A DNA stretch of 64,000 nt from Thalassia testudinum (lineage: Eukaryota; Streptophyta; Magnoliopsida; Alismatales; Hydrocharitaceae), in contig JAZHRO010000036.1 in the NCBI GenBank assembly GCA_037157565.1, forward strand, positions 17,410,501-17,474,500, written 5' to 3'. This document shows positions 16,230 through 61,242 of the stretch, one piece after another. Position 1 is the stretch's first letter, and each line of letters begins with the position of its first letter. The position numbers were made by a program, and so were the translations under genes. The notes under the pieces are model-generated. The model did no database searches. It worked only from the letters and a program-made list of their open reading frames with translations, and was not told the DNA's origin.

Positions 16230-16747
16230 CAGACTTTCAATCTAGAAATCAGACGTCTGACTATTGACTCAAACGTCCAATAACTTAGGCTGGACTTAGC
16301 AGGTTATGTCTGTTGAAATCTGACATCTAGACCTTAGTTTAAATGTCTCAGAAGGAGTCTGATGGTTGTGCCAAACGTCCAACTAGTGGAACATTGGCTA
16401 ACGAAGTAACCATTAAGGGAAATGAGCTTTAGGCTTATATCAGACGTCCGTATAGGACCCCAGACGTCTGATATGTGACCTTTGAACCTTGATTGAGCTG
16501 AAATCACTTGTCTTGAGGATTATAGCCATTTAAACTCTTGGGAATCCATTCCTACACTTAATTAGGGTTCCAGACATCTAGACCTAGTGCCAGACGTCTG
16601 GTACATCGTATGATTAGTTCACACTAGAACCCTGTTTAGGTCTGACTCAAGTCAATAAGGGAACCCGTCTAGAATTAGACATCTGACTTAGTTCCCAAGT
16701 GTCTTAAGAGTGACTTCCAGATGTCTGATCTTTTTCCCAGCCATTTG
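16230..16747 (+). promoter_or_regulatory. phased CAGACGTCTG palindrome array in copia LTR A
   Basis: Matches start at 16230, 16250, 16270; 16320, 16340, 16352, 16372; 16441, 16461; 16571, 16591; 16676, 16696; and 16718, 16738. Neighbouring starts are 20 or 12 bases apart in nearly every group. Exact copies are at 16250, 16461 and 16591; others show C-to-T or G-to-A decay (CAGACATCTA, CAGATGTCTG). The array lies upstream of the TATA box at 16858, where LTR enhancers are found. The binding factor is unknown. Confidence 0.7.
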
Positions 16748-16857
16748 ATGACCCTATCAGAATCATTAATGATTCTGATTGTGGCTTGCATTGCCTTGGA
16801 TGAACCCCAAGGGCTATGGAAGACTTCCAAGGCCTTCCAAAGCCTTCCTTGGCCCTC

Positions 16858-16866
16858 TATAAATAG
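16858..16866 (+). promoter_or_regulatory. TATA box of copia LTR A
   Basis: TATAAATAG after a quasi-palindromic CCAAGGCCTTCC / AGCCTTCCTTGG segment. Copy B has the same box at 23593-23601. Confidence 0.75.
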
Positions 16867-17509
16867 AGGAGTAGCCTTGCCTTGGAAACACACACCAAGA
16901 AACACATTTCCACATCTTTAGTGTCCATTTGATCTTGAGAAGAAGCCCTAGCTCTCCAAGCTTTAGTTCCACTTCAAGAGAGCTTCATCATCGTTGCACA
17001 CCCACTCTCCCTCCACAGTTACGAGAGCGACAAAGCGCCGCCGAGTGATTCACGCACCTGCGTCATCAAACGAACGCACTTCCACCTAAGGGAAGATCTT
17101 TTACCTATAGTAGCTAGTTTCATTTATATACTTTGTGGCTCTATAGGTTTGATTTGTATTTTACTTTATTTATTGGCTAGGTATTCGTGTTGCGAATTCC
17201 CATCTCCATCGAGGGACAAAATCCTTCTCGTGAAGAGGAGGGGTTAGAGGCACACTACCCTCATTCAAAGTAGTGTTGTCGTATTAAGGTTCAGTCACCC
17301 TCTTTTAAGTGACTGGGTTAGTGGATTTGATCAACTTTGTCGATCGAGAAATCCTAACTCAAGAGGGTTAGGTGTTGGTTTTCACCCGGTTTGGGTTTCC
17401 ATCTAAAAATCTCTTATGCAATTGTGATTGTCTTTTTGTGAGATTGGATTTAAATTTCTGCACTTTTCTTTTATCACGTAATTCTCACCCCCTCCCGTAG
17501 GGATTTACA

Positions 17510-18540
17510 CTTCTTCCTCCTAGCCTTTTTCTTCTATAGGTAGAAAACATCCTTCCACCTTCTTCCTCCTCTCTCTCACACACCTACCTTCCTCCACCAC
17601 CTTCTCCACCTCCTCTACCTTCTAGTTAGGTCCTTAGTCTCCTTAGGTTCCCTATTTTTCTGTTAGGTTTTCCGTTAAGCATCCCTTCTACCGCTTGAGT
17701 TCTTCTCATTTACTTCTTTGCATTCTTCTCCATATCCTCTAGTCTTCGACTACTCCCACTACCTCTTCACATCTTGGGGATTGAGTTGAATCACTCCACC
17801 ACCATTGCGAGCTCTCTGAGATGCTCTTGTTCTACTTCGTATTATGGCTTGAGTCTCTACTTCTCTTCTTATTGTTATTTGCTTTTGTAGTGCTTGATTA
17901 GTTGTGGACATTTGTTTTGAGTAGCAATAATATTTCATGAGCTTTCTAGTATCTCTTTTATATTTCTATTTGCTTTCTTTATTATTCCAAAAAATCCAAA
18001 AAAAAGTGTCCTTAGGTCATTAGTTTAGGAGTCTGTAGTATTTTCAGAGTTTCTGTTTGTTTTGGAAATTTTGTTTCTTACGGTACAATTGTCATAAAAT
18101 CACCAAAATTTTCCAAACTATGGGGTTTAAGTATAGTTTTTGCATACCAAAGTTCATATCCAAATTCGTTATACTTTATTTTATAAAATTCATGTAGTGC
18201 GAGGGGGATAGACAATAAAACAAAATTATTTTTCCTGAATTATATACTTATCCAATTTTCGCAAAATCACTTGCATTCATTATATCATAAAATTGGGAAT
18301 CTCCTATAAAATTGGTGGATTTTTTTATGACTGTAGGTCTAAAGTCTAGTCAAGTCTTGAGTTAGGAGTCTGTTAGGTTAGTTGCCCTATCACTTATTTA
18401 AAAATTAAAAAAATTAGAACAATGCTTCAAAAAATCCCAAAAAAATCTTAGTTGACTTAGTTAGGTCAGGAAACATCTAGACACCAATGCCTCTCTGTGA
18501 GACAACCTGTACACTAGATTTTATACTCATATGTTTCAGA
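17510..18540 (+). repeat. probable R/U5 part of a gypsy LTR interrupted by the copia element
   Basis: C/T-rich start, then TTAGGTTCCCTATTTTTCTG-type sequence, AT-rich middle with runs of AAAAATCCAAAAAAAA, and near 18490 CCTCTCTGTGAGACAACCTG, which resembles the CTCTGTGGGA-CGACC segment found near the end of Athila/Tat-type LTRs. It may be the continuation of the LTR that starts at 13181. The link is inferred from composition and position only. Confidence 0.4.
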
Positions 18541-19765
18541 TACGATTTATAAATTGTAAATGACGTGCTTCTCAACTACGATGACTTAATCCTTTACGTG
18601 ATTTCATGATCACAATGATACAAAGATAATGTGAAAAATATGTAACTCATGATTGGATGGATAGTGAATATGGGTTTTAATCCTAAAGATTACATATGTC
18701 TTCCAACGTGAAGGATTCATGAGTATTTGGAATACCTGAGGGTGGTGTAGCACCATAATTCTACTAAACATGAACCCTTGATTATTAGCGTAATGAAACC
18801 AATAATCATTTTGGTGGGTTACTATTTGATTTAATTGATTGATGCGGTTTAAGGAGTTAAATTACATTCAATTTGGTGATTAATTGCACCTAATTTGATT
18901 AGGTACAAAATCAAGGGTTGGATTGAAATTAATTGTGTTTTCATACTTGATCAAAATATCTCATAAGTTGTTATAAGCCAACCTTATAAAAATCAAATAG
19001 GATTAATTTCCAACACTTGAATAAAGATCTAAGGGCTCCCATCATATTAGCTTTAGCATTTGAAACCCAACATATATCTCGCTAAACCTACATGTGGTTC
19101 CCTAATTGCATTCAATTATGTCCAACCCCACCATTAATAGAGAAAGAAGAGGTTGTGCCCTTCTTCTCCTTTTTCTTCCTATTGCCATTAATAAGAAGAA
19201 GCAGGTTGGCCAAAGAGAGCTCCATCTATCCCCTTTCTTCTTGGGAAGGAGGTCATCCTGGTAGCACACTAAGTGCCACCCCTTGTTGCTCGCTTATATT
19301 GGACCAAGAGGATTTGATCCTCTAGGCCATGTTTTGGTGGTTTTTGAGGCGACGGTCGCCTCCCGATTCATGAAAGAGTTCGTGAGGCACAAAGGGTTCA
19401 CGCCGTACATAGAGGAATCAAATCTTATCAACATGAAGGGTCTCATTTGCTTGCTCAGAAGGAGGGAGTCCCTGTAGGTAGGACTTATACCAAGATGCAC
19501 AACTCGTGAAGTACTATGATACACCAACTATAGGTATAATTTCTTACTCATAGGGATCCCGAAATGGAGAGATACTAGATCTCTTCATATGTTTATCAAT
19601 TTTCATTATTTGGATTTATGGGCATCAACCCGAGTTGCGATTTGACAAAACTTTTAACACCTATGTTTTCACACTACCGTGATGAGACGGGAATCAAGGA
19701 TCGAATTGTTCAAGTCCCCATAGCCCTCGATTGCCGATCAGGTCCAAGACCATGTTTCTCAACAA
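18541..19765 (+). repeat. probable 5' LTR of an old copia element (start uncertain)
   Basis: Ends in ...TTTCTCAACA just before a clear initiator-Met primer-binding site. The start is not visible: I did not find a copy of the 3' LTR start (TGTTGGAGTTATGTGCC at 27958) here. The interval contains GATTTGATCCTCTAGG and other AT-rich LTR-like sequence but no gene. Confidence 0.45.
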
Positions 19766-19778
19766 TGGTATCAGAGCC
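19766..19778 (+). other. primer-binding site for initiator tRNA-Met (TGGTATCAGAGCC)
   Basis: Exact complement of the 3' end of plant initiator tRNA-Met without the final bases, the standard minus-strand primer site of Ty1/copia elements. It marks the LTR/internal boundary of the copia element that hosts the solo LTRs at 21923-24946. Confidence 0.88.
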
Positions 19779-21917: not shown

Positions 21918-22452
21918 AAGTGTGTAAGTAGCACTAGAAAGGGGGTGAATAGTGCGGCAAAAATAAAATTGATAACAATTGCAAAATGAAAATTCAATCC
22001 TACAAAAGCATTCACCACAAGAGATAGTTGATTTTTAGGTGGAAGCCCTAAGGGTAAAAATCGCCACCTAACTCACCCCTACAAACAACGACACTACTTT
22101 GGACCGAGAGTAGTGTACCTCAAACCCCTTTTCTTTACAAAGAGTATTTTGTCTCACAATGAGATGAAAATTCACAACGCGAATACCCAAACAAAAGCAA
22201 AAACCAAAAGAAACTACAAAGCCACAAAATACAAATTAACACTAAACTTTTATAGGCGTAAAAAACTTCCCTATTTGTCGAAGTGGATGAGCATGGTGGC
22301 GCAGCGGATCAATGCTCTCAGATGTGCAAAATAAGGCTTGGAGAGCAAGGACTATTTTTTTACTTTTTTGATCTTCTCACAATGAGTATAATGGTGGAAT
22401 GTATTATCTCTTGGATGTGTCAACAAGGGAAAGGCTCTAAGCTATCATAAAT

Positions 22453-23889
22453 TATTGGTGCAAGAGCACCTCGATCATTGATTTTGATGGTAACAAAACA
22501 CTTGTTATTTAATATTTACATTCGAGCTATAGTTTCAGGAATAATACAAATAAATTCAAGTGTAAAGGAGCTCAAGCTCGCATCTATGGAAAATTAGAGG
22601 AGCTTGATGGAGGAGAAGAGAAGATGGAAGCTTCACTTGGAGCGAGAGCTTGAAGACAAGAAGAATAGGATAGATGTCATGTTTATCTTTCTAATTGTAC
22701 TCTTTATTTGTTTTGCTATTTACTTTTCTTAGATTCATTGTTAAAGAGCCCAAGGTAACAAACATTAGTCCTAGGAACACTATTCCATCACTAGGACACT
22801 TAGGCAAACCCTAGAAACAAATCAGAAAATCAATATAGAAACTAGACAGCCTGATCAGACATCCACTCTAGACTTCAGACATTTGATCTTGGACTTTAAG
22901 ATGTTTGATAGTTTGTACAGATGTCTAAACACTTAGGGTGGACTTAGTACTCTTTGTTCATTACTTTTAGATGATTAGCCCATAGTCCAGACATCTTAGA
23001 AGACATCTGATAACCTTGATAGATGTCCAACAATAGGATCATTGGATTGTCAGAGCATAATCATCAAGGGTTATCTTATGAATATATTTATATTATGTTC
23101 CAGACATCCGTAGAGTTGTCCAGACGTTTGATAAATAGATGTTAGGTTAGATCTGACCCAAATCACTTTTGTCAAATGATTATAGCTGTTAGCCTCTCGG
23201 GAAATCCATTCCTACAGAGAATCCTCTTTCCAGATGTCCAGACACTTTGCCAGACAATCGACCTGTCGTCTAACCTAAAATTACCTAGAACCCAGTTTCG
23301 ATCTGATGAAAATAGGAAGAAATCTGATAATCTTCCCAAACATCTTATAAATGACATCTTAGACATCTATCTTGATCCAACACCATCCAAATGATCAACC
23401 CTTCTAGATCAGACGACCAACCTTTAGATCGTATGAAGACCTAGACATCTGACCTTAAACCCAAATGTCTGATAACCTTGTCAGAATCATAAATGACCCT
23501 AATTTCATTGGGATTTTGGATTGATCCTTTGTGATTTGTTTCCAACGGTTATGAAAGCCTTCTAAGGCCTTCTAAACCCTTCTTAGGGCCTCTATAAATA
23601 GATGAGGAACCTTCCTTTGTGAAATACACCTTGAGAAACTTCTTTCCACCATATTAAGTGTCTTAGAGAAGAAATCATCATCAAGAGAAGTTGTTACTCT
23701 CCAAGATCCACACTCCAAATCTGTGAGCACCAAAACTCTACTACATTCATGCCTACTATCTTCCAAATTAAGTCCTTGCCTATAGAAGCATAGCCTAATA
23801 TTTACTTTGTAGCTCTATAGGTATTTGTTTTTCCTTTTTGTTTGTGGATGGGTATTCATGTGGCGAATTCCCATCTATTAGGAATTACA
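22453..23889 (+). repeat. solo LTR of the same copia family nested in the inverse orientation (copy B)
   Basis: Runs from TATTGGTGCAAGAGCACC to AGGAATTACA and is flanked by TAAAT at 22448-22452 and 23890-23894. About 300 bases between GCGAATTCCCATCT and the end are missing compared with copy A, an internal deletion. The TATA box is at 23593-23601. Phased palindromes start at 22856/22876, 22898/22918, 22968/22988/23000/23020, 23101/23121 and 23231/23251/23263. Insertion occurred where the outer LTR aligns with the TATA box of copy A. Confidence 0.82.
23593..23601 (+). promoter_or_regulatory. TATA box of copia LTR copy B
   Basis: TATAAATAG after CTTCTAAACCCTTCTTAGGGCC-like purine/pyrimidine palindromic sequence; equivalent to 16858-16866 in copy A. 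Confidence 0.7.
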
Positions 23890-24951
23890 TAAATGAGTTC
23901 GAAAGTTTTAAGAAGGCTTAAGAGAGATCGTGTAGTCGTTGGAAACAAATCTAATGAGATTTGGTCCAAATCCAATGTGTGTGTAAGTAATCATTGTCAA
24001 GCAGCATAGTATCAGATGTTTGATTAGGGTATATTGGACATTTGATGAGCATGTTGGTCATCTAATTTTGGAAGGTGGTCTCCCTAGAATTTGATTGGAT
24101 GTTGTGTAGGGTTCTTATGTCAAAAGGTCAAATGACTAAAACAATCATATAAACCATCAGATGACATGATTAGATGTATAATATTGGGAGAAAAGTACTT
24201 GAAATTCATTCTAATGTGTTGGATCATTTACAGGGTACTTTGCCCTAATGGTTAGATGTCTGTTAGACATCTTATGTAAGGTGTGTTACCAAAAATCAAA
24301 TTTTTCATGAATTAAGAAATTAAGATTTGGTTTAACACAAAGATTTGGGTCAAATTAAATTACAACAGTTAATTATTGGACGTCTGGAAAGGATATCATA
24401 CATCTTAGAATTGCTATGGACTTCTAATATAGGGAATGGACATCTGATCAGCAAAAGCCTTAGATTTAGATTCCAGGCTTTGGTCATTAGACATCTAAGA
24501 AAGGATTAGACGTCTTAAGAGTAGTTATTAAATGTTTGATGAGAGAGTTGGATGTTTGAAGTTTGTTTACTATTTTTGGCTGTCTAATATAATTCTATGT
24601 CTTGCCTAAGGTTAGGTGAGTGTGCCTAGGACTGAGGTATATTTTGGGCTCTTTCACATGAATATAAGGAAATAAAAGGAGCAACAAATAAATATAACAA
24701 AATAAGAAAATCTAATCCTATTCTTCAAGTCTTCAAGCTTTAGCACTTAGCTCCATGTTTTCTCCTCCAATGCTTCTTTTCATCACCAAGCTCCTCCATC
24801 TCCACCATGGACTTAAGCTTGAGCTCCTTCTAATTGCCTTAACTAATTACAATAACTTGAAATCTCACAACTTAAATTGTAATTGTTAAATATCAAATGT
24901 TTTGTTATCATCAAAATCAAAGATTGAGGTGTACTTGCACCAACAAAGTGT

Positions 24952-31366: not shown

Positions 31367-32740
31367 TGATGAGCATGATTGTTGTTCAGGAAAGTTGGGG
31401 TTTTGGGAAACCCGTTGTCATAGTTGCAAAACTCGCTAACAAATAAAATTTTACAAAACTCCAAGAAAGTCCCAGGTCGAACACAGGGAAGTGAACGTTT
31501 GGTTTTATGAAATCCACGCTTCGATTTTATTTCTTTTTGTTGTTTTTATCTTTTATAATTTTTTTATATTTTTATAAGGCAAGAGATCAGGTCAAAATAA
31601 TTTCTATCTAATCTACTTGCAGAGAGAGAGAGAGAGAGATAATCACATATATATCTCAAATAGTTTGCTACAGATATGAAAGTGGAAGCTACCTAGAAAG
31701 TAGAAAAAGATAGAATGGGTTGAGAAGAGTCCCCCTCGATGGTCGCTTGGAGGACGGCTCGCTCTGATGTCGCATGGATGAAGGTGGTGGGAAGCTAGAG
31801 GAAGGAGAACAATGGTGGAGGAAGGAGGATAGGGTAGGATGGCATCCTGGTGAGGATCTTCTTTCGAAAGGTGGTGAGAAAATAGCTATGGGATGCTCCA
31901 TGAATGGGGGTGAGAAGTGGGAAAATATTTTGGTTTTCTAATCTAGAAGTGCATCCCGGGCTTGGGACAAACTCTTTCCAAAGCCTTAGAGGTGGTAAAG
32001 GAAAGAAAGGAAGAGATGAAGAAGAATGGGAGGGGTAGAGGTCCTTTTATAGTGGAGGAAAGGATCCATTTTGTACATAAGACATTTAGTGATAACCATA
32101 AACGTCACTGAAGATTCGCTGCAAGCGTCGCTAGAGCTCCAGCTCACATGCCCCATGTGCGGTGCTCGTGCATGTGCTCCGACTGCTCGTGTCGCGCACG
32201 CCTGCTGGTACTCACTACCTCTGCGCCCCGTGCACTGCGCTGCACATGGGCTCGCCCATAGGCAGCCTAGATAGCACCACGTGGCGTGATTTGGGTCATC
32301 TATCTTCTTTCCTTTGTAGGGGCCTCTACATAAGTTGGATTAAGTCGATTTTCATGCCATTGGGCTACAATCATCAACCCAAATCCATCAGTGTGGTCGG
32401 ATTTATCGTTTGAAGCTCTAAATTGTGTCATCTAGTCCCTTGGCTGTTAATCTTCCTCGGGTTGCATAAGGTGCTATAGGACTCCGATCAAGACAATTTC
32501 GGAGGCGTTGGACTCCGATCATTGTTCTGATCAGATCCGTACGGTCGGATCGTCAATCCAAGACTCTAAATTAAATCTCCTCTCCTAGCCATAAAAGGAT
32601 GTAATTAACCTAAAATTTATACAAACTACCCTAAATGCAGAATAATGAATGCTATGAAATATTTATAACATGAAATGCATATCTAACCTTAGGAACATGC
32701 ATAAATAAGCAGTTTATCCTAATTAAATGTGTCTTCATCA
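31367..32740 (-). repeat. 3' LTR of the minus-strand element
   Basis: 1374 bp, from TGATGAAGACA (at 32740 reading leftwards) to TGCTCATCA (31367). The TATA box on the minus strand is TATAAAAGGAC (32041-32051). Near its end it carries CCCTGTGTTCGACCTGGGAC (about 31470-31490), a segment also found near the ends of the LTRs at 37270-37290 and 48275-48295. Confidence 0.88.
32041..32051 (-). promoter_or_regulatory. TATA box of the minus-strand element's 3' LTR
   Basis: Minus-strand TATAAAAGGAC. The equivalent in the 5' LTR is at 53738-53746, next to the insertion site of the solo LTR 51102-53730. Confidence 0.7.
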
Positions 32741-35131: not shown

Positions 35132-35526
35132 TGTTTGCACCTCAAAACACGCCTGTAATAACGCCTTCTTGTGCTATTTTCTAGCATTAACATTGCATAA
35201 TAGGATCCTGTAATCGCATTTGTAAAAACACTTGCATGCATGCATTTAATCAAGAGAGGAAGAGGAGTGAAACAATCGCCTGCATAGTTACATTTTTCTT
35301 CAAGTGCCTCCTTGCAAAATCACCCTCTTTTTATTTTTCCTCTTGATTTCTTCTTTTCTCTCCTTCCCGCGGCTGCACCCTACCCGCGGCTGCACTCTTC
35401 CCGCAGCTGCATGCAGCAGCCACGCAGCACTTCTTCCCGTCACTTCTCCCTGCCAACGCCGCTCCCTATAGCTGCAACTCGCACACCCTCTCCATGCTGC
35501 AGCCGGCACGCCACTCTCCCCTCCTC

Positions 35527-35533
35527 TATAAGT
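35527..35533 (+). promoter_or_regulatory. TATA box of the 5' LTR (TATAAGT)
   Basis: TATAAGTAG, 395 bases into the LTR, at the point where sequence becomes C-rich. The same box lies 395 bases into the 3' LTR (46584). Confidence 0.65.
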
Positions 35534-36123
35534 AGCTGCAGCTTCATCCTTGCAAGAGCAGCTGCTGCAAAGACCCCGCAGCCACCACCTTCCTCTCCAC
35601 CGTTCTCCCCTCCCATACGCTGGCCCTCCGTCGAGGAGGCACCCGGCGAGCAGGAGAACCCACTGTGGTGCACACCACCACAGTGGGAGCACCACCGCCC
35701 AGCTCTTCCACGAGCCGGTGGGCGTGGTGTTTTCTTTTCTCTTCGTTTTCGTCTCCACGCCATTGCTGCCGCTTCAAGCTCCGAAGCTTGAAGCAGCAGC
35801 AGCAGCAGCCCAGCACCAGCAGTAGCAGGTCCTCCCGCTCCTCCGCGACCGTCCCCGCAGTCGCTCACCGCCTCCGCGCGCGTCTGCAGGGCGTTCCCCG
35901 CCTCCGTCTCCGTTCTGTCCGCCTCGCAGTTGCACCTGTAGCCGTCCGCCGCGCGCACTGCAGCGGCCGGCTACGGCCTCGCGCCGCCCCCTGCCCTCCT
36001 CCGCGACCCTCCTCGACCACCTGCAGACCTCCTCCACGCTCGCTCCTCCACGCCTTCGCCCGCCCGTCGCCTTCGCGCATGCCTGCAGGAACCCTGCGCG
36101 AAGGCGCGGTGCACCATGACGGT

Positions 36124-36188
36124 CAGACGTCCGCCTTCGCCTTCAGACGACGTGGCGTCAGACGTCCGCCACCTCTTGCAGACGTCTT
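36124..36188 (+). promoter_or_regulatory. two pairs of 20-base-spaced CAGACG palindromes in the 5' LTR
   Basis: Starts at 36124, 36144, 36159 and 36179 (CAGACGTCCG, CAGACGACGT, CAGACGTCCG, CAGACGTCTT): spacings 20, 15, 20. The 3' LTR has the same at 47181, 47201, 47216 and 47236. Unlike in the copia LTR, they lie about 600 bases after the TATA box. Confidence 0.6.
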
Positions 36189-36369
36189 AACTCGCGCGTC
36201 CGCGATCTCCCTCTCTCTCTGCCGATCTCTCCCGCGCGCGTCCGCTCGATCTCTCCCGCCCGCTCCCGCTCTCTCTCTCTCACGTATTCTCTCTCTCTCT
36301 CTTTTATTTAACTCACAGCAACACACACACACACATTCACCGACGCACACACACATTCACCGACACACA

Positions 36370-36755
36370 CACTTATAGTAACATATATACATATATATAT
36401 ATATACATACATATATCTATATATATATACTTATATACATAGTATATCTATATAGTTATGTATACATACATATATATATAAATACATACATTATATATAA
36501 TATATATATATATCTACTTATATATACATCTATATACTTATACATATACTTATATATATATAGACATATATACTTATATACATATATATATATACATATA
36601 TATAGTAATATATATATATACTTATATACATATATATACACATATATATCTATATATATATATATCTATACATATATAACTATACATTTATATATATATA
36701 TAGATATATTTACTTATATACATACATAAGTACATATATTTTCACGTTATTTATT
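36370..36755. repeat. TA-rich microsatellite in the 5' LTR
   Basis: Long runs of TATATA mixed with TATACATA and TATCTATA. The counterpart in the 3' LTR is 47415-47730 and shorter, so the tract has changed length since insertion. Confidence 0.9.
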
Positions 36756-37443
36756 ATACGCTGTATCGCGGGGATATCTGCACCAGTTGCTGATATTCCC
36801 TGATACACGCGTACAAAAAAAGCGTGGTCCCATACATCATCCATCCTCCATCCACACTCCACGCGGCACCTAGTCGTGTTGGTTGCGTCTCTCTAGACGT
36901 CGACTGACTCGACATAGTGCTACACTCCATCGTCACCTCCACCCCCACCCCTTTATATATATACTACATATAAATATATATCTATAGCTACTATATTTAC
37001 TTTCTATCTGTTATCTTCCTTCTTAGTAAAAAGATAAAAAAAAGGTATAAAAGTGAAAAGATAATCTTTGATTTGCAGGTACCCCGTCTTGCAAGTAGCA
37101 AGGCGTGTTTTGGGACTCTGTTTGGCTAAAAGCCAAGGACACAATTTTGAGGGTGTGCCTCAAGAACAAGGATTACCATAAAAAACCTAAATAAGAAAAA
37201 CACCAAAAAACACAATAAACGAATGGAAGAGACGCGTTTTAAGGAAAACGTAGAAACTCGACTTTAACCCCACTTCCCTGTGTTCGACCCTGGGCCTAAA
37301 AGTGACAAGATAAAATCAATTAGGTCAGGTTAAAAAATTTTGTAAAGAGATGGTTAGGTCTGAATTAGGTTAACCACTATACAAATTTCAACGATAAAAA
37401 TATCATATTAACAACCTATCTGGGCCGACCAACATAACTTTTC

Positions 37444-37461
37444 TGGCGCCGTTGCCGGGGA
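37444..37461 (+). other. primer-binding site for tRNA-Asp (TGGCGCCGTTGCCGGGGA)
   Basis: An 18-base exact complement of the 3' end of plant tRNA-Asp, the usual primer of Athila-type elements, nine bases after the LTR end. Diverged versions occur at 50407-50424 (minus strand) and 61243-61256. Confidence 0.95.
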
Positions 37462-46188: not shown

Positions 46189-48431
46189 TGTTTGCACCTC
46201 AAAACACGCCTGTAATAACGCCTTCTTGTGCTATTTTCTAGCATTAACATTGCATAATAGGATCCTGTAATCGCATTTGTAAAAACACTTGCATGCATGC
46301 ATTTAATCAAGAGAGGAAGAGGAGTGAAACAATCGCCTGCATAGTTACATTTTTCTTCAAGTGCCTCCTTGCAAAATCACCCTCTTTTTATTTTTCCTCT
46401 TGATTTCTTCTTTTCTCTCCTTCCCGCGGCTGCACCCTTCCCGCGGCTGCACTCTTCCCGCAGCTGCATGCAGCAGCCACGCAGCACTTCTTCCCGTCAC
46501 TTCTCCCTGCCAACGTCGCTCCATATAGCTGCAACTCGCACACCCTCTCCCTGCTGCAGCCGGCACGCCACTCTCCCCTCCTCTATAAGTAGCTGCAGCT
46601 TCATCCTTGCAAGAGCAGCTGCTGCAAAGAACCCGCAGCCACCACCTTCCTCTCCACCGTTCTCCCCTCCCATACGCCGGCCCTCCGTCGAGGAGGCACC
46701 CGGCGAGCAGGAGAACCCACTGTGGTGCACACCACCACAGTGGGAGCACCACCGCCCAGCTCTTCCACGAGCCGGTGGGCGTGGTGTTTTCTTTTCTCTT
46801 CGTTTTTGTCTCCACGCCATTGCTGCCGCTTCAAGCTCCGAAGCTTGAAACAGCAGCAGCAGCAGCCCAGCACCAGCAGTAGCAGGTCCTCCCGCTCCTC
46901 CGCGACCGTCCCCGCAGTCGCTCACCGCCTCCGTACGCGTCTGCAGGGCGTTCCCCGCCTCCGTCTCCGTTCTGTCCGCCTCGCAGTTGCACCTGTAGCC
47001 GTCCGCCGCGCGCACTGCAGCGGCCGGCTACGGCCTCGCGCCGCCCCCTGCCCTCCTCCGCGACCCTCCTCGACCACCTGCAGACCTCCTCCATGCTCGC
47101 TCCTCCACGCCTTCGCCCGCCCGTCGCCTTCGCGCACGCCTGCAGGAACCCTGCGCGAAGGCGCGGTGCACCGCGACGGTCAGACGTCCGCCTTCGCCTT
47201 CAGACGACACGGCGTCAGACGTCCGCCACCTCTTGCAGACGTCTTAACTCGCGCATCCGCGATCTCCCTCTCTCTCTGCCAATCTCTCCCGCCCGCTCCC
47301 GCTCTCTCTCTCTCACGTATTCTCTCTCTCTCTCTTTTATTTAACTCACAGCAACACACACACACACATTCACCGACACACACACACATTCACCGACACA
47401 CACACACACACTTATAGTAACATATATACATACATATATCTATATATATATACTTATATACATAGTATACCTATATAGTTATGTATACATACATATATAT
47501 ATAATATACATACATTATATAATATATATATATATATCTACTTATATATACATCTATATACTTATACATATACTTATATATATATATAGACATATATACT
47601 TATATACATATATATATACATATATATAGTAATATATATATATACTTATATACATATATATACACATATATATCTATATATATATATATCTATACATATA
47701 TAACTATACACTTATATACATACATAAGTACATATATTTTCACGTTATTTATTATACGCTGTATCGCGGGGATATCTGCACCAGTTGCTGATATTCCCTG
47801 ATACACGCGTACAAAAAAAGCGTGGTCCCATACATCATCCATCCTCCATCCACACTCCACGCGGCACCTAGTCGTGTTGGTTGCATCTCTCTAGACGTCG
47901 ACTGACTCGACATAGTGCTACACTCCATCGTCACCTCCACCCCCACCCCTTTATATATATACTACATATAAATATATATCTATAGCTACTATATTTACTT
48001 TCTATCTGTTATCTTCCTTCTTAGTAAAAAGATAAAAAAAGGTATAAAAGTGAAAAGATAATCTTTGATTTGCAGGTACCCCGTCTTGCAAGTAGCAAGG
48101 CGTGTTTTGGGACTCTGTTTGGCTAAAAGCCAAGGACACAATTTTGAGGGTGTGCCTCAAGAACAAGGATTACCATAAAAAACCTAAATAAGAAAAACAC
48201 GAAAAAACACAATAAACGAATGGAAGAGACGCGTTTTAAGGAAAATGTAGAAACTCGACTTTAACCCCACTTCCCTGTGTTCGACCCTGGGCCTAAAAGT
48301 GACAAGATAAAATCAATTAGGTCAGGTTAAAAAATTTTGTAAAGAGATGGTTAGGTCTGAATTAGGTTAACCACTATACAAATTTCAACGATAAAAATAT
48401 CATATTAACAACCTATCTGGGCCGACCATCA
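46189..48431 (+). repeat. 3' LTR of the 35132-48431 element
   Basis: 2243 bp, from TGTTTGCACC to CCGACCATCA. Nearly identical to the 5' LTR apart from scattered substitutions, the 18-base loss near 47284 and a shorter TA tract. TATA box at 46584; paired palindromes at 47181-47245. It is followed by the C-run of the target site. Confidence 0.93.
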
Positions 48432-48436
48432 CCCCC

Positions 48437-50424: not shown

Positions 50425-51101
50425 AAATGGTGAGCGGGTTTTCGCGAGGGAAAGCTAGGGTTTCGGGAAACCCGTCATCGTAGTTGCAAAACTCGCTATC
50501 AAATAAAATTTTACCAAAACTCCAAGGGAGTCCCAGGTCGAACACAGGGCGACGAATGTTTTGTTTTTGTGAAATCCACGCTTCAGTTTTATTTCTTTTT
50601 GTTGTTTTTATCTTTTGTAATTTTTTTACATTTTTATAAGGCAAGAGATTAGGTCAAAATAATTTTTATCTAATCTATTTGTAAAGAGAAAGAGAGAAAC
50701 AATCACATATATATCTCAAATAATTTGCTACAGATATGAAAGTGGAAGGCTACACTAGAAAGCAGTAAAAGATAAAATGGGTTGAGAAGAGTTCCCCTCG
50801 ATGGTTGCTTGGAGGATGGCTCGCTCTAACATCTCCTGGATGAAGGTGGTGGGAAGCTGAAGGAAGGCGAACGACGACAGAGGAAGGATGACGGGGTAAG
50901 ATGACATCGTGGTGAAGATCTTCTTCCAGAAGGTGATGATAGGATGGCCACGGGATGCTCCACGAATGAGGGTGAGAGGCGGGAAAATATTTTGGTTTTC
51001 TACTCTAGAGGAGCATCCTAGGCTTGGGACAAGCTCTCTCTAGGGCCTTGGAGGTGGTGAGGGAAAGAAAGGAAGAGATGAAGAAGAATGGGAGGCGTAG
51101 G

Positions 51102-53730
51102 GTGAAATGACCTGTTGCCTTTTGGGTTGTTTAAGACGTCTGGGTAAGCCGTCAAACGTATGTCCAGACGTCTAGATGAATGGTCGAACTTTTGAAAGTA
51201 GAAGAACCATACCTTCTTTCTTTTCCGCACACGAGCTGCATGTGCACTCACCTCTCTCTCCTTACCCCAAACCCTAACCCTCTCCTATTTAACCCCCACC
51301 CCCACGCCACTCCATCCATCTCCACCAGCCACCATCTTCGTCCTTCACCTTCCTCCCTTCCTTCCAACGCGGCAAGAGGAGAGGAAGAAGAGAGAGAGCT
51401 GGGACGCGAAGGAGGAGGAAAGGGGAGCGGGTGTGTGGGAGGAGCTCGAGAGGAGGAGCTCGCGAGGGAGCTGCGGGAGCTTGTGCCAGAGGAGTCGAGG
51501 GCACGAGCGAGGAGGAGGAGCTTGTGAGCAGGAGCCTTGGCCTCCTGCAGCTCCTGCGAGCGAGCTTGCGAAGGAGACAGCTCCCTGGAGAAGTTCTGCG
51601 TACTGGATATTTTCCAATATCAGACATCTGGAGCATCTCCCAGACGTCTGGAGTAGCAAAAGCATGTCCAGAGCTGAAGTCGGACATCTGAAAGCACGCT
51701 TAGTGCTAAGGTACGTGCTTTTGTGTGGTTATGACCATGCAGGCCTCACCGCAAGGATTTTTGCCCAGCCTTATTTAGCTCTGCGCGTGTGTTCACAGGA
51801 GCAGAGCATTGGAAAGGCACGAGGTGTGCCCTTCGAGGTGCTTTTGGACGTCTGGACACGTCGCCAGAAGTCTGACCATACCTCCAGACAACCGGAAGGA
51901 GGGACTGACGTCTGGAACTCACCTCAGGCGATCGCAGAAGGGTCCAGATGTCTGAGGTAGCCGCAGAAAACCCAGGATGAGTATTGACATCTTTTAAGAC
52001 GTTTAGGACTAGACCCAGACGTCTGATTTAGGGTAGTGTGAGTGTTTTTGGCTCGTTTAGGGCCCAAATGGAATTGGATTTCCGCAAATGAAGTACCGTT
52101 GTTTTTCGCTTGAGTTTTTCTACGAGTTAGTGTCATTTGTTTATGGTTTTGGACTCGTTTGACGCGGTTGGTTAATTGTATAGGTCTCCAGCTAGTCGAG
52201 TACGCGGGAGCTGCGGAGGCGATAGGATCTACGATCCAAGCCCCCATTCCTCCCATGTTTGCCGGTAGAGTGGTTTACATTCATATTTTGATTTAAATAA
52301 ATGAACTGCATGCTTAGAGTAAATTGAATGAACCCTAGGATGAGAATGAACCCTAAGGCAGAAACGAATGAGCATGGTTGAGCTACACTGTTTACTTGAG
52401 ATGCTTGTAAAATTGTAAATGCTAGCAAGTGTACTGGTTATGTAATATGATGCCTTGTCAGTTAGAAAATCACGAGCTGTCTGTTCTAAGAATGGAAACG
52501 GAAATGTAAATAGAGAGATATGAAAGTTTTGAATATGAAATGAAAGGAATACCAGCATGAACCCTAAAATGAATTAGGAGGAAAACCCCTATAGATGAGA
52601 AGTGAGCTGGCCCTTGTGTACGTGGTACCAAGGAGAGCCACTGCCCCTTTTGTGTAGAGGGGTACTAGTCGCCCGTTGGGTTGAGCCCCAGGGTCAGGCC
52701 TAGACACTTTACACTGACTCTGTTTGGCCCTTGTGTACGTGGTACCGAGGTGAGCTACTTAGTGTAAGGAGGGAGGTAGCCGCCCCAAGGGGCCCAGTGT
52801 TAGGACTAGCCGCCCTACACCAACTCTTGTTAGACCCACTGGGCAAACCGAGATAGTCGGACGAGGGTACGCGGATTGTGGAGGGGTGAAACCCCTATGC
52901 TGTTATGTTCTGAGAGGACAAGTCCCTGTACTGTTTCGTGCTGTACCTTTAGGCATACCCGCTAGCGGAAACGACTGACCGCGTGCCAGTGCGGAATAGC
53001 TACTCGCACGCTTATCACGTGTGCCATAGTTACCGCTACGTCGCAACTATGACCTCGAGGTGGTTGACTGGGTGTAGGATTAACACAGGGGACTCTCCTG
53101 GCTAGGAGAGCACCACATGTACCTCCTACATCATGGAAAAAAATTGCAATCAAGATCATTCCCGTGAGGAATAGGCTAGATCAAGAATTGGTTTAGGTGA
53201 ATAAAGGAACAACAAATTTAAAGTACTTGGTTGAACTAAATGAAAATGGATAGTTACTTAATTGCATTAATTTATAGCTTGTCTCAATTACATATAAATG
53301 GCTAAATTACCACTCTACTCAATGTTCATTGACTTCGAAAATTTTATAACCCTATTCAGGTCATGGAGTTGAGCAACCAGCACCACTGGCTGCAGAGGGA
53401 GCTGGGCCCAGCCGAGCCTAGCCTTAGCTGCGTTTTCTTACTGTTACCTAGCTTCTGTTGTAGTAGTGAGTATTTTTGTTCTATGTAATACTGTTTCAGT
53501 ACATTCAACTGTACTTTCTCTGTCATAGTTATGATGGCTTGTAATATTGATGGACTATTTCGCTCTGTTTCTATTACTGTCTTTTAAATTATTTTTGTTT
53601 AGTTACATTGCATGTGTGGTTGTGATTTATTTCCTGCTTTTGGTTATTTCTCGTTGAACGATTAGGTCTTAGGATTAGTCGAGGTGAGTCGGTCTTGGGT
53701 CCTGTAGGGATCTGGGATCGGGTCGTAACA
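51102..53730 (+). repeat. 2.6 kb solo LTR of another gypsy family
   Basis: Starts TGAAATGACC and ends GGGTCGTAACA; neighbours TAGGG (51097-51101) and TGGGG (53731-53735) are a 4-of-5 target duplication. The ends resemble chromovirus (Tekay/Del-type) LTRs, an inference from a few bases. A possible TATA-like CTATTTAACC lies near 51285. A GC-rich stretch follows. Units of GGCCCTTGTGTACGTGGTAC occur near 52610 and 52727. Phased CAGACGTCTG palindromes lie at 51133-51174, 51621-51690, 51845-51954 and 51996-52025. Confidence 0.8.
51845..51954 (+). promoter_or_regulatory. six palindromic sites at exact 20-base spacing
   Basis: Starts 51845 (TGGACGTCTG), 51865 (CAGAAGTCTG), 51885 (CAGACAACCG), 51905 (CTGACGTCTG), 51925 (CAGGCGATCG, weak) and 51945 (CAGATGTCTG). 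Two further groups in the same LTR keep the 20-base step: 51621, 51641, (51661 weak), 51681 and 51996, 52016; and 51133, 51153, 51165 shows the 20-12 step. Confidence 0.72.
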
Positions 53731-54839
53731 TGGGGATCCTTTTATAGTGGAGGAAAGGATCCATTTTGTACATAGGACATTTAGTGATAACCACAAACGT
53801 CGCTAAAGATCCACCGCAAGCGTCACTAAAGCTCCAGCTCAAGCGCCTCACACATGGCACTCGTGCGTGCGCTCTGCCCGCCCATTGCTCACATGCTTGC
53901 TAGCGCTCGCTGCCTCCGCACACTATGCGCTTTGCGTGCCCATGTGCTGCACGCTTCTCTGTGCGCGTGTGGTGGTGCATGCAAGCCCATGGGTAGCCTG
54001 GATAGCTCCACATGGCATGATCTAAGTCGTCTATCTTTTTTCCTTTGTAGGGGTTGCTACAGAAGTTGGATTGAGTTGATTTTTGCACCATTAGGCTACA
54101 ATCGTCGACCCAAATCCATCAGTGTGGTCGGATTTGTCATTTGAAACTCTAAATTGCATCACCTAGTCCCTTGGTCATTGATCTTCCTCAGGTTGCATAA
54201 GGTTCCGCGGGACTCCGATCAGGATGATTTCGAAGGCGTTGGACTCCGATTGTCATCCTAATCAGATCCGTATGGTTGGATGGTCAATCCGTGGCTTTGA
54301 ATTAAATCTCCTCTTCTGACCATAAAAGGATGCAATTAACCGAAAATTTATACAGACTACTCTAAATGCAGAATGATGCATGCTATGCAGTATTTATAAC
54401 ATGGAATGCATATCTAAGCTTAGGAATATGCATAAATAGGCAATTTATCTTAATTAAATTTGTCTTCATCAACACCCAACATAATCACAAAAAAAAAAGT
54501 GGGCACACCCAACAGAATCACAAATTTACCGGCATTATATAAATTAAATGTACGTAGGCACACCCCACATGTAAAAGAAAAGGAACTTTTAAAAAATTTG
54601 AACGAAATGATAGAACAATGTCACATAGTGGAGAACAAAGGGAAGAACTTCAAAAAATCCGAGAAACCTATATGACAGACAATAAAATTAAACTCAGTTT
54701 GGAATAATAAATAAACATAAGCTTGGGAAAAAATAATAAATATAAGCTTTGAATAATTAAATGTAAGCTTTAAAACTTAGTTTCTTTAATAATTTCATTT
54801 TTAGGATACGAATTAATACAAATACCAAATTATCTTATA

Positions 54840-55580: not shown

Positions 55581-55585
55581 ATCGA

Positions 55586-57309
55586 TGGTGAGCATGTTTT
55601 CGCAAGGGAAAATCAGGGTTTTGGAGAACCCATCGTCGTAGTCACAAAATAACGCTACCAGATAAAATTTATACCGAAACTTCAAGGGAGTCCCGGGTTG
55701 AACATAGGGAGGCGAACATTTGGTTTTGAAATCTACGCTTTTGATTTTATTTATTTTTGATGTTTTTATCTTTTGCAAAAAAATGTTTAGAATTTTAATA
55801 GGCAAGATCAGGTCGACAAAATATTTATCTAACTAATCTACTTGCAAAATAAGAGAGAGAGAGAGAAACAATCATATATATGTGTAAACAAGAGTTTGCT
55901 ACAATGGAAGAAGTTACAACTATACTAGAAAGCAATAAAAGATAAAGGTGAGAAGAATCCCCCTTGACGGTCGCTTGAAGGACAACTCACTTTGACGTCG
56001 CCTGGGTGAAGGTGATGGGAAGTTGGAGGAAGGAGAACGGCGACAGAGGAAAGAGGACGAGGCAGGACAACATCGCGGCAAGGATCTACTTCCCAAAGTG
56101 GTGAGAGGATGGCCACAGGATGCTCCACGAAGAGGGATGAGAGGTGGGAAAATAATCTGATTTTCTACTCTAGAGGAGCATCTCGGGCTTGGGACAAGCT
56201 CTCTCTAGAGCCTTGGAGGTGGTAAGGGAGAGAAAGGAAGAGATCAAGGCCAATGGGGAGGTGTAGGTGGGCTTATATAGGTGTAACGGAGGGGTCCTCC
56301 ACGACCATGCACCAAATGCAGCGCGCAAGACATGTGCCACACGGGCACCTCCTGCACACAACTATGCGCGCATTGTGCACTTAGCACTGGCATCTCCGCA
56401 CAACGCAGTTCGAAGGCACTTGAGGGTCTGCAGGTCACGTGATGATTGTTGGATCGCAGGTGGACAGTGCGAATCAAGCAGAGGTCGCGCGATTGGGATC
56501 GTGCACATCGCACACTTACACTTGAATTACGCATGCTCGCTGGCGAGAGAGGACATCAACTGCTTAATCGTGGATAAAGCTCTAGGATCATTCTTCGAAG
56601 CACGCCCAGTTGTCCGTGCGATCGCACGTATGGCGCGAGCGTCCATCCACACGTGTAGATTCTGACCATTCGATTGAGATCGAGCGGTCCAATTTCGCTG
56701 GCATCGACAAGGTTGGGACAAATCGCCGCTTGAACCCGCACCCTTCTTTGAGAAGCAGGCACACTACCAATGTGGCAAGGCGCTGGTTTGTTGCACCGAA
56801 GAGCTGCTGCATCCTCGGTCTCAACCATTGGATGAAGATCCAACAGTCGAGATCTCATCAGGCCTTCTCCTTTGGAGTTGTGCAGCAAGCAACGATGAAA
56901 CTCAGTCGTTGGATTGAGATCCAGTGGCTTGGATCTCTTCCTAAGGCAAAGTAGGTGCTATGGCCAATGTTGGGCAGCCTAGATGGCCCCACATGACGCC
57001 ATCTGGGCCGTCCATCTTCATTCCTTTGTTGGGACTGCTATGGATGTCGGATCGAGATGATTTTTATATTGTCAAACTGTGATCGTAGTTCTGGATCCAT
57101 CCGTACGATCAAATTTTTCATCCAAAACCCATAAAGATGTTACATTATCCTCTGGCCACACCAAATGTAAAGATTAATATACAAATTATGTGAATCATCC
57201 TAAATGCAATGTAATGAATGTTATACATTATTTACAATGCTACATGCAATGTTAAGCTTAGGAACTAACATAAGTAGGCATTTTATCATGAATAAATGCA
57301 TATTTATCA
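55586..57309 (-). repeat. solo LTR related to the minus-strand Athila-like element
   Basis: 1724 bp, plus-strand ends TGGTGAGCATG and ATTTATCA, flanked by ATCGA at 55581-55585 and 57310-57314. It aligns with 31367-32740 and 50428-54471 at both ends (GGGAGTCCCGGGTTGAACAT near 55690; TAAGCTTAGGAACTAACATA near 57255). The minus-strand TATA-like CTATATAAGCCC is near 56272. It interrupts the CACTA transposase remnant. Confidence 0.87.
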
Positions 57310-57314
57310 ATCGA

Positions 57315-58079
57315 CCTTCCTTCGATATCAAATATGGACATGCAATCTTCATCATTACCATTAAATCCTCCATCATAATTACGTTCAAGATAATTAAATT
57401 AATTATCTGTCATATTCATGTACATAGCATAGAAGTTAATACATTTCTTTACAAGATATCCTTCCACGATTGACCCTTCTGGCTTTGCCTTATTCAAGAC
57501 ATAATCTTTCAGCTTCTTCAAATATCGTTCAATTGGATACATCCATCTGTACTACACGGGTCCAGCAATTCTTGCTTCATTTGCAAATGAAGCATGACAT
57601 GAACAATCACGTCGAAGAATGCAGGTGGAAAATCTACTTCATTTTACAAATTGTGATCACAATTTGTTTATCCTAGTACTCCAGCAATTCAGGATCTAAT
57701 GTCTTTGAACATATTACTTTAAAATATCTGCTCATCTCCATGAAAGAATCGACTACCTGATCAGGCATCACTCACGTATCGCTAGTGGGAATAAGATTTT
57801 CATGTACACATGAAAATCATGACTTTTTAACCCAATAATCTTCTTTTGCGCTTTATTTACACAACGTGAAAGCTGCAATGAATACCATCTGGAACTCGAA
57901 TGTCATTAAGGAATGATAAAATCCTTTGTCTTTTCTCTTCGGTAAGACTGTATATAGCTTCTAGAAAGTGAGTGATGATAACATCATCATCAGCCATATC
58001 TAGCTTTAATTAGTCATAATCAAGGAATAAATGCTCCTACATAACAGCCAGAGGAGCATAATTCACTGCAAATCCATTC
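57315..58079 (-). pseudogene. CACTA transposase remnant: start of DUF4218 and preceding linker
   Basis: Read leftwards: EEKRQRILSFLNDIRVPDGI (near 57930-57880), then LGLKSHDFHVYMK-type sequence, PDQVVDSFMEMSRYFKVICS with KTLDPELLEY (57760-57670), and VITICKMK and FHLHSSTLFM. The order LKSHDCH, LP-A-R, FF--ICS and LD-L-- is that of the DUF4218 region of TNPD. Stops and frameshifts are frequent. The element starting at 58080 cuts it off. Confidence 0.7.
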
Positions 58080-58869
58080 TGAGGGAAATATAGTAAAATA
58101 GGGGTAAAACTGCAGTTTTAATAGCGTATCTCAATTGCATAATAATCATGGGATTTCTCAGGGGTTAATTAAAGGCCAAATGGTCTTAAATGTCTAACAA
58201 ATGAGTCCGTGCAGACAGAAATAGGTTTTCACATATTTCAGGAATTAAATGATATCTAAAACCCTAAAAATAGACCTGCTTAATCTATTGAGGTTATGGT
58301 CAAGATAAAATTCACATAAACTCTCTAAAAATTATAATAAAATATTCTCTAGGGTTTGGTGTGCTTGATTTGACCATTGGAACTCAATTTGACCTAAAAT
58401 AGAGTCTTAGATAGACAATTACCCTACTTTGGGTTTTTACGTAAATTACCCAGACAAACTTGGAAAAAACCTAAATCTAACTTCACCATTTGATTCCTTG
58501 GGTCCAAATTAGGCATGTACCAAAATTTCGGCTCAATCAGAGATTGTCTTGACCTAGTTTGTAATTTGGTCTAGTCTGAATCTTTTCTCTCACACACATG
58601 CCCCTAACTTTCGAATTCCATGCAAAGAACCCCTAACTTCATCATCTTCTTTGCACGCAAATCCTCACACCATGTTTGGAAGGTTGAACCTCCACCATTG
58701 AGTTTTGAGCGAGGATTTCTCGCTCAACTCTCAATCAATCTCTCCCAAAATTTATATGGGGATTCCTTGTGAAATTGCCTTCCATTTGAACCGCATCTTG
58801 GGCTCTACTTCTTTCCCAAAAGGTCATGTGAACCTTTCAAAGGTTTGAGTTTCCTTTTTATGTGAACCT

Positions 58870-58901
58870 CCCAAGCTTGGAAGCTTCTTTCCAAGCTTGG
58901 G
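58870..58901 (+). promoter_or_regulatory. perfect 13-bp inverted repeat just upstream of the LTR TATA box
   Basis: CCCAAGCTTGGAA (58870-58882), loop GCTTCT, TTCCAAGCTTGGG (58889-58901). It ends 16 bases before TATAAAAG. Either arm also contains AAGCTT, itself a palindrome. Confidence 0.75.
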
Positions 58902-58917
58902 AAGGCTTCGTATGGCC

Positions 58918-58925
58918 TATAAAAG
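58918..58925 (+). promoter_or_regulatory. TATA box of the LTR (TATAAAAG)
   Basis: TATAAAAG, about 840 bases into the LTR, followed by the C/T-rich segment seen after the TATA box in the other LTRs. Confidence 0.72.
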
Positions 58926-61242
58926 AACCCCTATTCCATTTCGCATCTTCTGAACTAAGTTTTGGCCAAAATACCCTCTTCAAACTCCTTCCCCGGCCAT
59001 CTCCGACTTAGCTCGCTCCTCCCTCCGTCGCTCTTCGGCCTTCCAGTGGCCAAATTGGGAGTGCCATCATCTTCGTCTCTTTCGTTCGCACCTGGTGTGC
59101 CAAAGCTAGGGTCGTCCTCCCCTCTCTTCCTCGCCATCCACCTCTCCGGAGTTCTCTTCCATGGCACCGGCCAATCAAAGCTGACATCCACCTACCCCTT
59201 TTGTCTGATTAGCTTAGGTTAGATTAGTTCCTTATAGCTCGTAGGTTAGTTTCCTACCCAAAAATCCCAAAAAGAACCCCTTGAATCCACTAATCACTCT
59301 CATCTTCTCCATCTTCGACCACTCCTCCAGCAAGGCACCCCATCGCTACACCCATCTACATGCCTTGCCACTGACTCCACAAGCTCCGCCATCACAGGGA
59401 GGGCAAAAGCCCTTTGTCTATTTCTCCGATTCGTGACTCCACGACTCTCCCGAACTCCACCTTCACGCACTGACTTACTGAGGTCGTACGACCTCCACGC
59501 ACGCCACGCTGCATCCACCACCACGTTTGCCATCACATGGCGAAGCTGCTGAGTCGTCTGCCATGGCTGTGAGGCCTTTTCTTGAATTTCAGGTACCAGG
59601 TCGAGCCTGCCATTAGCAGGCAACCTTCAAGCTCACTTGAAGCATTCTCCAACTGCTGCAAGTCCCAGGTACCATGCCCAGGTCACGCAGAAACAATCCA
59701 GGAAGCAATATGATTGGTCAATTCATGACATTGACCATGTTGGCTGCTTCAATTGAGCAAAAAAGCACCTGAAGTTGCTGTTGCCAGTTGCACGTAGAAG
59801 GTGGGACAACATAGTCCCATATCAGAAGAGGCAAAGCGTCTGAGGAAATTGATTTTGTGCCTGGGGCTTATCGCCTCAGAACACTGGGGGTGAGATCCCC
59901 ACTCACCCACACTAACCCAACCCACCTAACCCTATACTCACACCTTGGCTGCGATCCACACCCGCAGCCCTGGTCTCGGGTGTGCTCATACTCGATACCC
60001 GAATGCCCAGTACTGTGCATGGCCTTGTGAAGGCAGAAAGGAGGTGGAAACCCAGAGAGAAAATAGGTGAGAGAGTGCTAGGTAGGGGAGTGTTTTGCTA
60101 TGGAGAAGAACGGCTAACACTTGGCCGAATTTGAAGAGGAGTTCCCCTTTGTACGTGAAGAAAGAAAGGAGCAGAGAAAGAAAAGAGGCAAGGTAGAAGA
60201 AGAGGGGGATCGTGGAAGAAGAAAGGAAGAAGAAGAAGAAAGAACAAGACCATAGAAAGAAAGAACAGAAGGCAAGGAAGAAGAACAACAACAACAACAA
60301 GAAAATCAAAAGAGTACTGTAGCAACGTCTTTTAAGGCGTTTGATTGAAAAATCAGTCGTCTGATTATCAACTCCTTCATATTAATTGTACTGAGTAATT
60401 GTTCTATGTGTTAGACTAATAATTGGTGATCCAATTCACCATTATTTTGTCTAGATTTCCTTTTGGTTCCTCATATACTCATGTTATACATTGCATATTA
60501 GTTTTTGAGTAATTAATTATGCTCATTTATATCTTTTATTGGGATTAGTACGTGAATGCAATACTTGCTCCCAATGTTTGACCTCAGATACTCTTTTGAA
60601 TTCGAGTAATAAATTTTATTTGTTGATTGAGCGATTTAGAGGACACTACAACGAACGCATACTTAGATCCCCTCGTTTTCGCCCGAATCAACAGTGAGAC
60701 CCTTCTTCTTCAACGTGCAACACAATATGAATACCTAAAATTTTCATATCATTCCTTGTTTTACTGTGTCCTTTGGGTTGTCTGCTAGGTTTAATACGTC
60801 AAGAATGTTGTGTTAGTTCAACCCCTCATATATAATATTTTAATGATTTTACAAAATGAAGATAAAGAGATAAAAACATAAGCATAGCATATTTTTCTCT
60901 TTGAACTCGCTCAATAGTATTAACATAACAAGAAACATGAAAATTGAGACACGCATATTTACAATTTTATATCTCATTAACAAGTGTACTAATTACCCGT
61001 GAAAATAAGATAACGGGTGCGATTTATATTCGTGAGTTGGAAATCGGATTACGCAATTAGGTTAGAGGTTAGGTTAGCAAAAAATCACAATGATTGAAAA
61101 GTTAGAAATCAAGTCAAGTCGCATTTCCACCGCCCTATGTTCGACCAGGATTTACCAAGTTTTGTTATTTTATTTGTTGACGTATTTTCTTGCTATACTA
61201 TGACGAAAATATTCAAAAATGTGATTTTACGCTGAATAAATT

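Follow-up and report, generated by a model that had tools for sequence, protein, structure and literature searches.

The closest described counterparts of the arrays considered here are the repeated-motif (RM) boxes of Sireviruses (Bousios et al. 2010, PMC2829016), palindromes with a CGG-CCG core. They are reported there to be absent from other Ty1/copia elements, to begin a few hundred base pairs (bp) from the start of the long terminal repeat (LTR), upstream of the TATA box, and to recur in the linker that precedes the env-like gene. We analyzed a 64,000-nucleotide stretch of the Thalassia testudinum genome (contig JAZHRO010000036.1, positions 17,410,501 to 17,474,500, forward strand; hereafter the window, with coordinates counted from its first base), in which LTRs of both copia and gypsy retrotransposons carry arrays of the 10-bp palindrome CAGACGTCTG, typically at a step of 20 bp from one site start to the next. 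The copia arrays are the RM boxes of PMC2829016 with a new word.

As in that account, many palindromic copies lie upstream of the TATA box in copia Sirevirus LTRs and others lie in the linker. The RM-box trait of at least eight copies in the upper half and upstream of TATA is found in four loci elsewhere in the genome (given L numbers), with 15 sites at two or fewer mismatches in L028, 19 in L029, 15 in L036 and 15 in L041; the window copy has 7. The nearest word given there is that of Usier, GTCGGACGTCCGAC, the core of which, CGGACGTCCG, is two transitions from CAGACGTCTG; the latter lacks the CGG-CCG core. At step 20, CGGACGTCCG forms 8 pairs in the window versus 22 for CAGACGTCTG. CpG and CHG decay could link the two words, since 36 of the 45 mismatches in window sites are transitions. 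There are further differences: the 20-bp step dominates here, whereas a fixed step was not found in the accessible portions of PMC2829016, and RM boxes are confined there to Sireviruses among Ty1/copia elements, whereas here an array also follows an integrase-chromodomain region (L026); no test of gypsy elements was found in those portions. A maize palindrome, CACCGGACNNNGTCCGGTG, common to Copia and Helitron annotations (PMC10760457), offers another comparison: here too, a single genome has the same palindrome in two classes of element, tied to RNA structure and small RNAs. It is not a case of copia-gypsy LTR sharing; gypsy was not found in that text, nor was a phased array in its accessible part. 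For such arrays, neither fixed phasing nor sharing between copia and gypsy was found reported in the open-licence literature, outside which most subscription papers lie. Short repeated protein sites in the control regions of mobile elements are otherwise familiar from operator or iteron arrays with helical phasing and from subterminal sites of the TNPA or VANC type; there the reader is the element's own protein, whereas here it is putative and likely of the host.

Phased palindromes in the LTRs of the window

A sequence-only reading of this DNA had proposed a phased palindrome shared by the LTRs of several families. This is confirmed, as all 24 step-20 pairs with up to 5 mismatches in 20 bases fall inside the named LTRs, while shuffling in 1-kb blocks yields 0.16 pairs per 64 kb. 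These LTRs and their arrays are:

15823..17509, plus strand: SireA, a copia Sirevirus LTR; start at the junction of the polypurine tract (PPT) and AT, end as in the sequence-only reading
16230..16747, unstranded: SireA array, 20-step pairs at 16230, 16250, 16441, 16571 and 16718; upstream of the TATA box
22451..23900, plus strand: SireB, second Sirevirus LTR; 3' end approximate, TATA box at 23593
22856-23471: SireB array, pairs at 22856, 22898, 23101 and 23442, 12-bp step at 22988/23000
23901..24946, minus strand: SireC, start part of a third Sirevirus LTR; inner border approximate
35132..37434, plus strand: Athila-like gypsy element, 5' LTR; borders set by the match between its two LTRs
36124..36190, unstranded: Athila array of the 5' LTR, sites at 36124, 36144, 36159 and 36179 (steps 20, 15, 20)
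46189..48431, plus strand: 3' LTR of the Athila-like element, 95.75% identical to the 5' LTR
47181..47247, unstranded: Athila array of the 3' LTR, the same array as in the 5' LTR
51103..53730, plus strand: chromovirus-type solo LTR with TGAAAT...GTAACA ends, nested in an Athila-like LTR
51133..51174, unstranded: first array of the solo LTR, with steps of 20 and 12; TATTTAA follows about 110-150 bp downstream, at 51286
51621..52025, unstranded: second array of the solo LTR, sites at 51621, 51641, 51681, 51845, 51865, 51885, 51905, 51945, 51984, 51996 and 52016
58080..61238, plus strand: 58080 LTR, probably Athila-like; start as in the sequence-only reading, TATA box at 58918
60322..60363, plus strand: 58080 array, sites at 60322, 60334 and 60354 (0-12-32) with 4, 3 and 1 mismatches

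Single sites are concentrated in the LTRs as well: at a tolerance of one mismatch, the 12,822 bp of non-redundant LTR contain 18 copies of CAGACGTCTG and the 48,935 bp outside contain one. When the 1,024 ten-bp palindromes were ranked over 51 steps (10 to 60), with one Athila LTR and the TA-rich block masked, CAGACGTCTG gave its 22 pairs at step 20; non-variant palindromes with at least 4 G/C reached a maximum of 9 pairs, and the words above CAGACGTCTG are all A/T-only. Chance or base composition as an explanation is ruled out by the shuffles and this ranking. Around the 19 sites with at most one mismatch, offsets of +20 and -20 yield 8 and 9 more sites, respectively, at 7 or more matches in 10, the rate at background offsets being 0.6%. 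Neighbor distances of up to 70 bp between sites with two or fewer mismatches are 20 (8 cases), 40 (3), 12 (2), 42 (2), 35 (1) and 70 (1). Across 22 pair units, which had been selected for their site matches, the mean top-base frequency is 0.82 in site columns and 0.37 in gap columns, versus 0.38 for random sequence.

Individually, the LTRs differ in how well the array is kept. SireA is preceded by AGGGGGAG polypurine tracts, exact at 15603 and 15711 and with one mismatch at 15561, 15646, 15764 and 15813 (the terminal one); its junction at 15821-15824, AT/TA, is one transition off the Sirevirus AT/TG attachment site, its TATA box lies at 16858, and its site at 16230 has 4 mismatches. The interval 21923-24946, earlier described as a copia LTR with phased sites, does contain the array, but it comprises two copia LTRs in opposite orientation, one on the plus strand at 22451-about 23900 and one on the minus strand surrounding it, the array of which has decayed to a single 20-step pair at 24377. 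Both LTRs of the Athila-like element have the 20-step array formerly ascribed to them, although the sites at 36144 and 47201 carry 3 mismatches; on the minus strand, 36190-36159 reads TTAAGACGTCTG-N10-CGGACGTCTG, and the 5' LTR has a candidate TATA box at 35526 and TATTTAA at 36305. With the TA block removed, the best 20-step pair of the Athila LTR was equalled in 0 of 5,000 shuffles, and that of the 58080 LTR in 0 of 2,000. The steps of 12 and 20 claimed for the latter are weak singly and significant as a lattice, albeit with the degenerate sites listed above and mixed evidence from relatives; from 60332 it reads TTAAGGCGTTTG-N10-CAGTCGTCTG. In the solo LTR, the site at 51984 has 4 mismatches. 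Three other Athila-type-looking LTR pieces (31389-32740, 50427-54471 around the solo LTR, and 55585-57309) have no 20-step pair; not every LTR, therefore, carries the array.

Lineages of the array-bearing elements

The sequence-only reading had counted at least four unrelated families. Four LTR families do carry the array, but by sequence comparison these would be better put as belonging to three lineages, because the gag-region DNA of the 58080 element matches that of the Athila-like element (65%). Copia domains beside the LTR were seen in relatives: a copia gag domain (PF14223) lies between the two LTRs of L036, and RVT_2 is present in L043. On the gypsy side, the array of L026 is in an LTR directly after Integrase_H2C2 (3.3e-18) and Chromo (4.1e-06, above cut-off) domains, with a partial rve match below its cut-off; by similarity, L048 is a second case of integrase-chromodomain plus array. 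The solo LTR is assigned to the chromovirus type (Tekay/Del) by LTR similarity, its matches to genome copies being at about 60-83% over 300 bp or more. The Athila-like element has Retrotrans_gag, RVT_1 and rve domains (Pfam) and, at 37444, an exact tRNA-Asp-type primer-binding site (PBS), as in Athila-type elements; an Athila integrase query for relatives elsewhere gave no match. The 58080 LTR is followed at 61239 by a PBS-like sequence with 6 mismatches in 18 and by a gag-like region beginning at 62735; a Pfam scan of 63478-63945 in this element found no domain.

The earlier statement that these LTRs show no other alignment proved correct for copia versus gypsy. With the sites masked, the Sirevirus LTR aligns with none of the other reference LTRs; without masking there is one weak copia-gypsy match (E 0.006). 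None of 18 masked genome loci (L040-L057) matches both the Sirevirus and chromovirus references, though L047 among them also carries a 58080-type piece. The base flanking exact sites is T in 26, C in 9 and G in 1 of the Sirevirus cases, and C in 33, T in 14 and A in 5 of the chromovirus cases. Two further elements deserve mention: the array of L037, partly related to L045, is in an unassigned element, and in L043 an array (about 1047 and 1110-1632) occupies the linker between the copia pol and a PPT octamer, as reported for env-type Sireviruses.

Genome-wide abundance, spacing and a directional word

The genome-wide pattern search that the sequence-only reading called for covered 4.26 Gb, and its repeat counts are lower bounds. 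At up to 2 mismatches in 20, it returned 483,342 CAGACGTCTG pairs with a gap of 10 (N10) and 98,012 with N2, versus 3,060 with N11; backwards-read control patterns gave 186, 3 and 359, respectively. A sample of 15 stretches, chosen at round coordinates along seven large contigs and totalling 90 kb, had 12 step-20 pairs at the same stringency, where 10.2 are expected from the genome count, with other steps at 42 (8 cases), 22 (4), 12, 41 and 50 (2 each), and 21, 32, 52 and 60 (1 each). A step-20 pair with up to 5 mismatches is present in 6 of the 15 stretches, L057 being borderline. In the first seven of them, the 45,662 bases outside hand-assigned LTRs have 12 sites and two overlapping pairs, both of which belong to the L037 element. 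Ten IMG/VR viral contigs contain two exact copies of CAGACGTCTG, spaced by N10 in none, by N2 in 2 and by N17 in 5; these five (L002, L006, L008, L009, L010) presumably come from viruses related to one another, with no link to the arrays of the plant. The Sirevirus PPT/LTR pattern matched 14 contigs, none with a further PPT in the preceding 600 bp.

The alternation of N10 and N2 conjectured from the window is nearly unaltered in the less decayed copies L025 and L026. In such copies, site-N10-site pairs are joined by N2 (step 12) or, in Sireviruses, by N12 (step 22). In eight genome LTR stretches (three Sirevirus and five chromovirus-type, related copies included), steps of 12, 20 or 22 bp make up 72 of the 97 neighbor distances within 70 bp (34/40 in Sirevirus, 38/57 in chromovirus-type). 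Consecutive steps are ordered 20-12 (9 cases), 12-20 (11), 20-22 (6), 22-20 (6) and 20-20 (10), with zero instances of 12-12, 12-22 or 22-22. The best-fitting period of the distances is 10.2 bp in both the Sirevirus and the pooled data.

The pairs also have a direction. The word TTAAGACGTCTG-N10-CAGACGTCTG occurs exactly 85,541 times in the genome (42,844 and 42,697 on the two strands), whereas its backwards reading has no exact genome-wide match. It is present without mismatch in the chromovirus-type L025 and in the Sireviruses L028 and L036, whereas the window LTRs match it with 1 (Athila), 2 (solo), 3 (58080) and 4 (SireB) mismatches. Among the 100 copies listed, many gaps appear dyad-symmetric at their edges (GGAA....TTCC, GGG....CCC), and accordingly the recognized dyad may be larger than 10 bp. 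The 58080-type gap is itself nearly symmetric, ATTT..AAAT (L034 1329-1358; L037 about 4558-4588).

A putative shared reader and its alternatives

We posit, with somewhat better than even confidence and from sequence patterns, that a single dimeric DNA-binding protein, probably of the host, docks on these phased arrays in both copia and gypsy families and controls LTR transcription. One putative dimer would bind each 10-bp palindrome. The 10-bp gap would set neighboring sites about two helical turns apart, and the N2 and N12 joins between pairs would differ by about one turn; bound dimers would therefore align on one face of the DNA and could touch. The protein would act on LTR transcription or chromatin, and the same one, most likely a host factor, would be used by copia and gypsy families; a host protein appears the likeliest reader because unrelated elements share the array. 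Dimer contact is favored because spacing is preferred while gap sequence is free, and neither hairpins nor neutral repeats nor simple inheritance need such a spacing. Sites of the bZIP C-box, ARF and LBD types were considered as those of the reader and not adopted; a literature search on LBD sites returned nothing.

The position of the arrays suits this in part. In 4 of 5 Sirevirus LTRs, those in which a TATA box was found, arrays at LTR positions 409-997 are followed by TATA at 1033-1115. Of 7 chromovirus-type LTRs, 2 contain an early TATA-like box, which an array precedes by 110-200 bp and another array follows at some distance; in a third, the sole box comes later, at 1199, and the strings used detected none in the other 4. 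Several observations weigh against the proposed docking sites. The best TATA precedes the array by about 600 bp in the Athila-like LTRs and by about 1,400 bp in the 58080 LTR; hence, a role as upstream promoter does not suit all the LTRs. A strict spacing grammar fails, as 25 of the 97 neighbor distances depart from it, mostly at 32, 50, 52, 58 and 69 bp. The 58080-type LTRs are the loosest, with step 20 in just 3 of 6 copies (the window, L034 and, with a weaker second site, L033), 21 in L037, 19 in L038 and none in L035. Once distances of 20, 40 and 60 are removed from the chromovirus copies, a period of 6.5 bp fits better than 10.2, and related copies inflate the helical-period fit. Finally, the arrays fold well as RNA (z-scores of -3.80 and -3.56 for two arrays).

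The last point bears on the proposal, made for maize Sireviruses, that the palindromes form hairpins, as RNA or in single-stranded form, which seed small RNAs or serve packaging. Maize small RNAs concentrate on Sirevirus palindromes (PMC5311732, PMC10760457), and in L034 matching changes in both sites preserve the inverted repeat. However, a hairpin has no need for an exact gap of 10 or a grammar of 12, 20 and 22, self-complementary words by themselves raise folding scores, and the A-type site AAGACGTCTG disrupts end pairing, all of which makes this explanation highly improbable. Even harder to credit is a neutral minisatellite, a 20-bp unit tandemly duplicated in LTRs and amplified by retrotransposition: some runs are consecutive at 20 bp (e.g., 51845-51945), but site columns stand at 0.82 and gap columns no higher than background, the 12- and 22-bp joins do not suit one unit, and the same word recurs in unrelated families.

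The sequence-only reading had left two options, LTRs converging on a host factor or a small array passing from one LTR to another; of these, we favor the shared reader. Under the second, template switching or recombination would have carried a short array from family to family, and it would have been kept as functional, the common word reflecting descent of this module. All four LTR families of the window, and the genome at large, indeed have the directional word, complete with an unexplained TTAA extension. Within families, too, gaps come close to random (3.55 of 10 matches versus 3.27), and old descent would therefore leave no trace in them. A single inserted repeat, gaps included, is unsupported by the cross-family gap identity of 3.26 of 10 versus 3.27 at random, a value that would also be compatible with an old spread because identity within families is just 3.55. 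On the other side, the masked Sirevirus LTR aligns with no other reference, and both the flanking bases and the place relative to TATA differ between Sirevirus and chromovirus LTRs. On balance, we regard module spread as rather unlikely. A regulator encoded by the elements, for example in the Sirevirus env-like open reading frame region, could instead bind its own arrays as an activator or anti-silencer, with gypsy elements having evolved sites to exploit it. PMC2829016 reports RM copies upstream of the env-like gene, and the RM words in its Table 3 vary by element and species, as those of a fast-evolving pair would; likewise, the L043 array lies between the copia pol and the PPT octamer. However, no candidate protein was found, no search aimed at one having been made, the chromovirus and Athila copies would have had to follow, and we consider such a regulator improbable.

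Retrotransposon families are usually seen as separate parasites, each with its own control region. Yet, nearly half a million spacing-locked pairs exist in this one genome, adjoining both copia and gypsy genes. Returning to the docking-site proposal, it is conceivable, though we would stop a little short of calling it probable, that one diffusible protein reads a common phased code (20 bp, with joins of 12 or 22) on several abundant LTR retrotransposon families. Copia and gypsy elements would thereby form one regulatory network, which each family entered once it had evolved or acquired the array. A single reader protein would then give access to many unrelated elements at once, and the function of the Sirevirus RM boxes would become directly testable.

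Some minor observations on the window may be added. An exact TGGTATCAGAGC at 19766, which we take to be a tRNA-Met-type PBS, probably marks the end of another LTR that has no array. The two Athila-like LTRs differ in a TA-rich block with many inverted repeats (36370-36760 and 47410-47740). The target duplication of the solo LTR is an imperfect 5 bp, TAGGG/TGGGG, and the Athila-like LTR hosting it (50427-54471) is on the minus strand, with an uninterrupted relative at 31389-32740 that allows an empty-site comparison.

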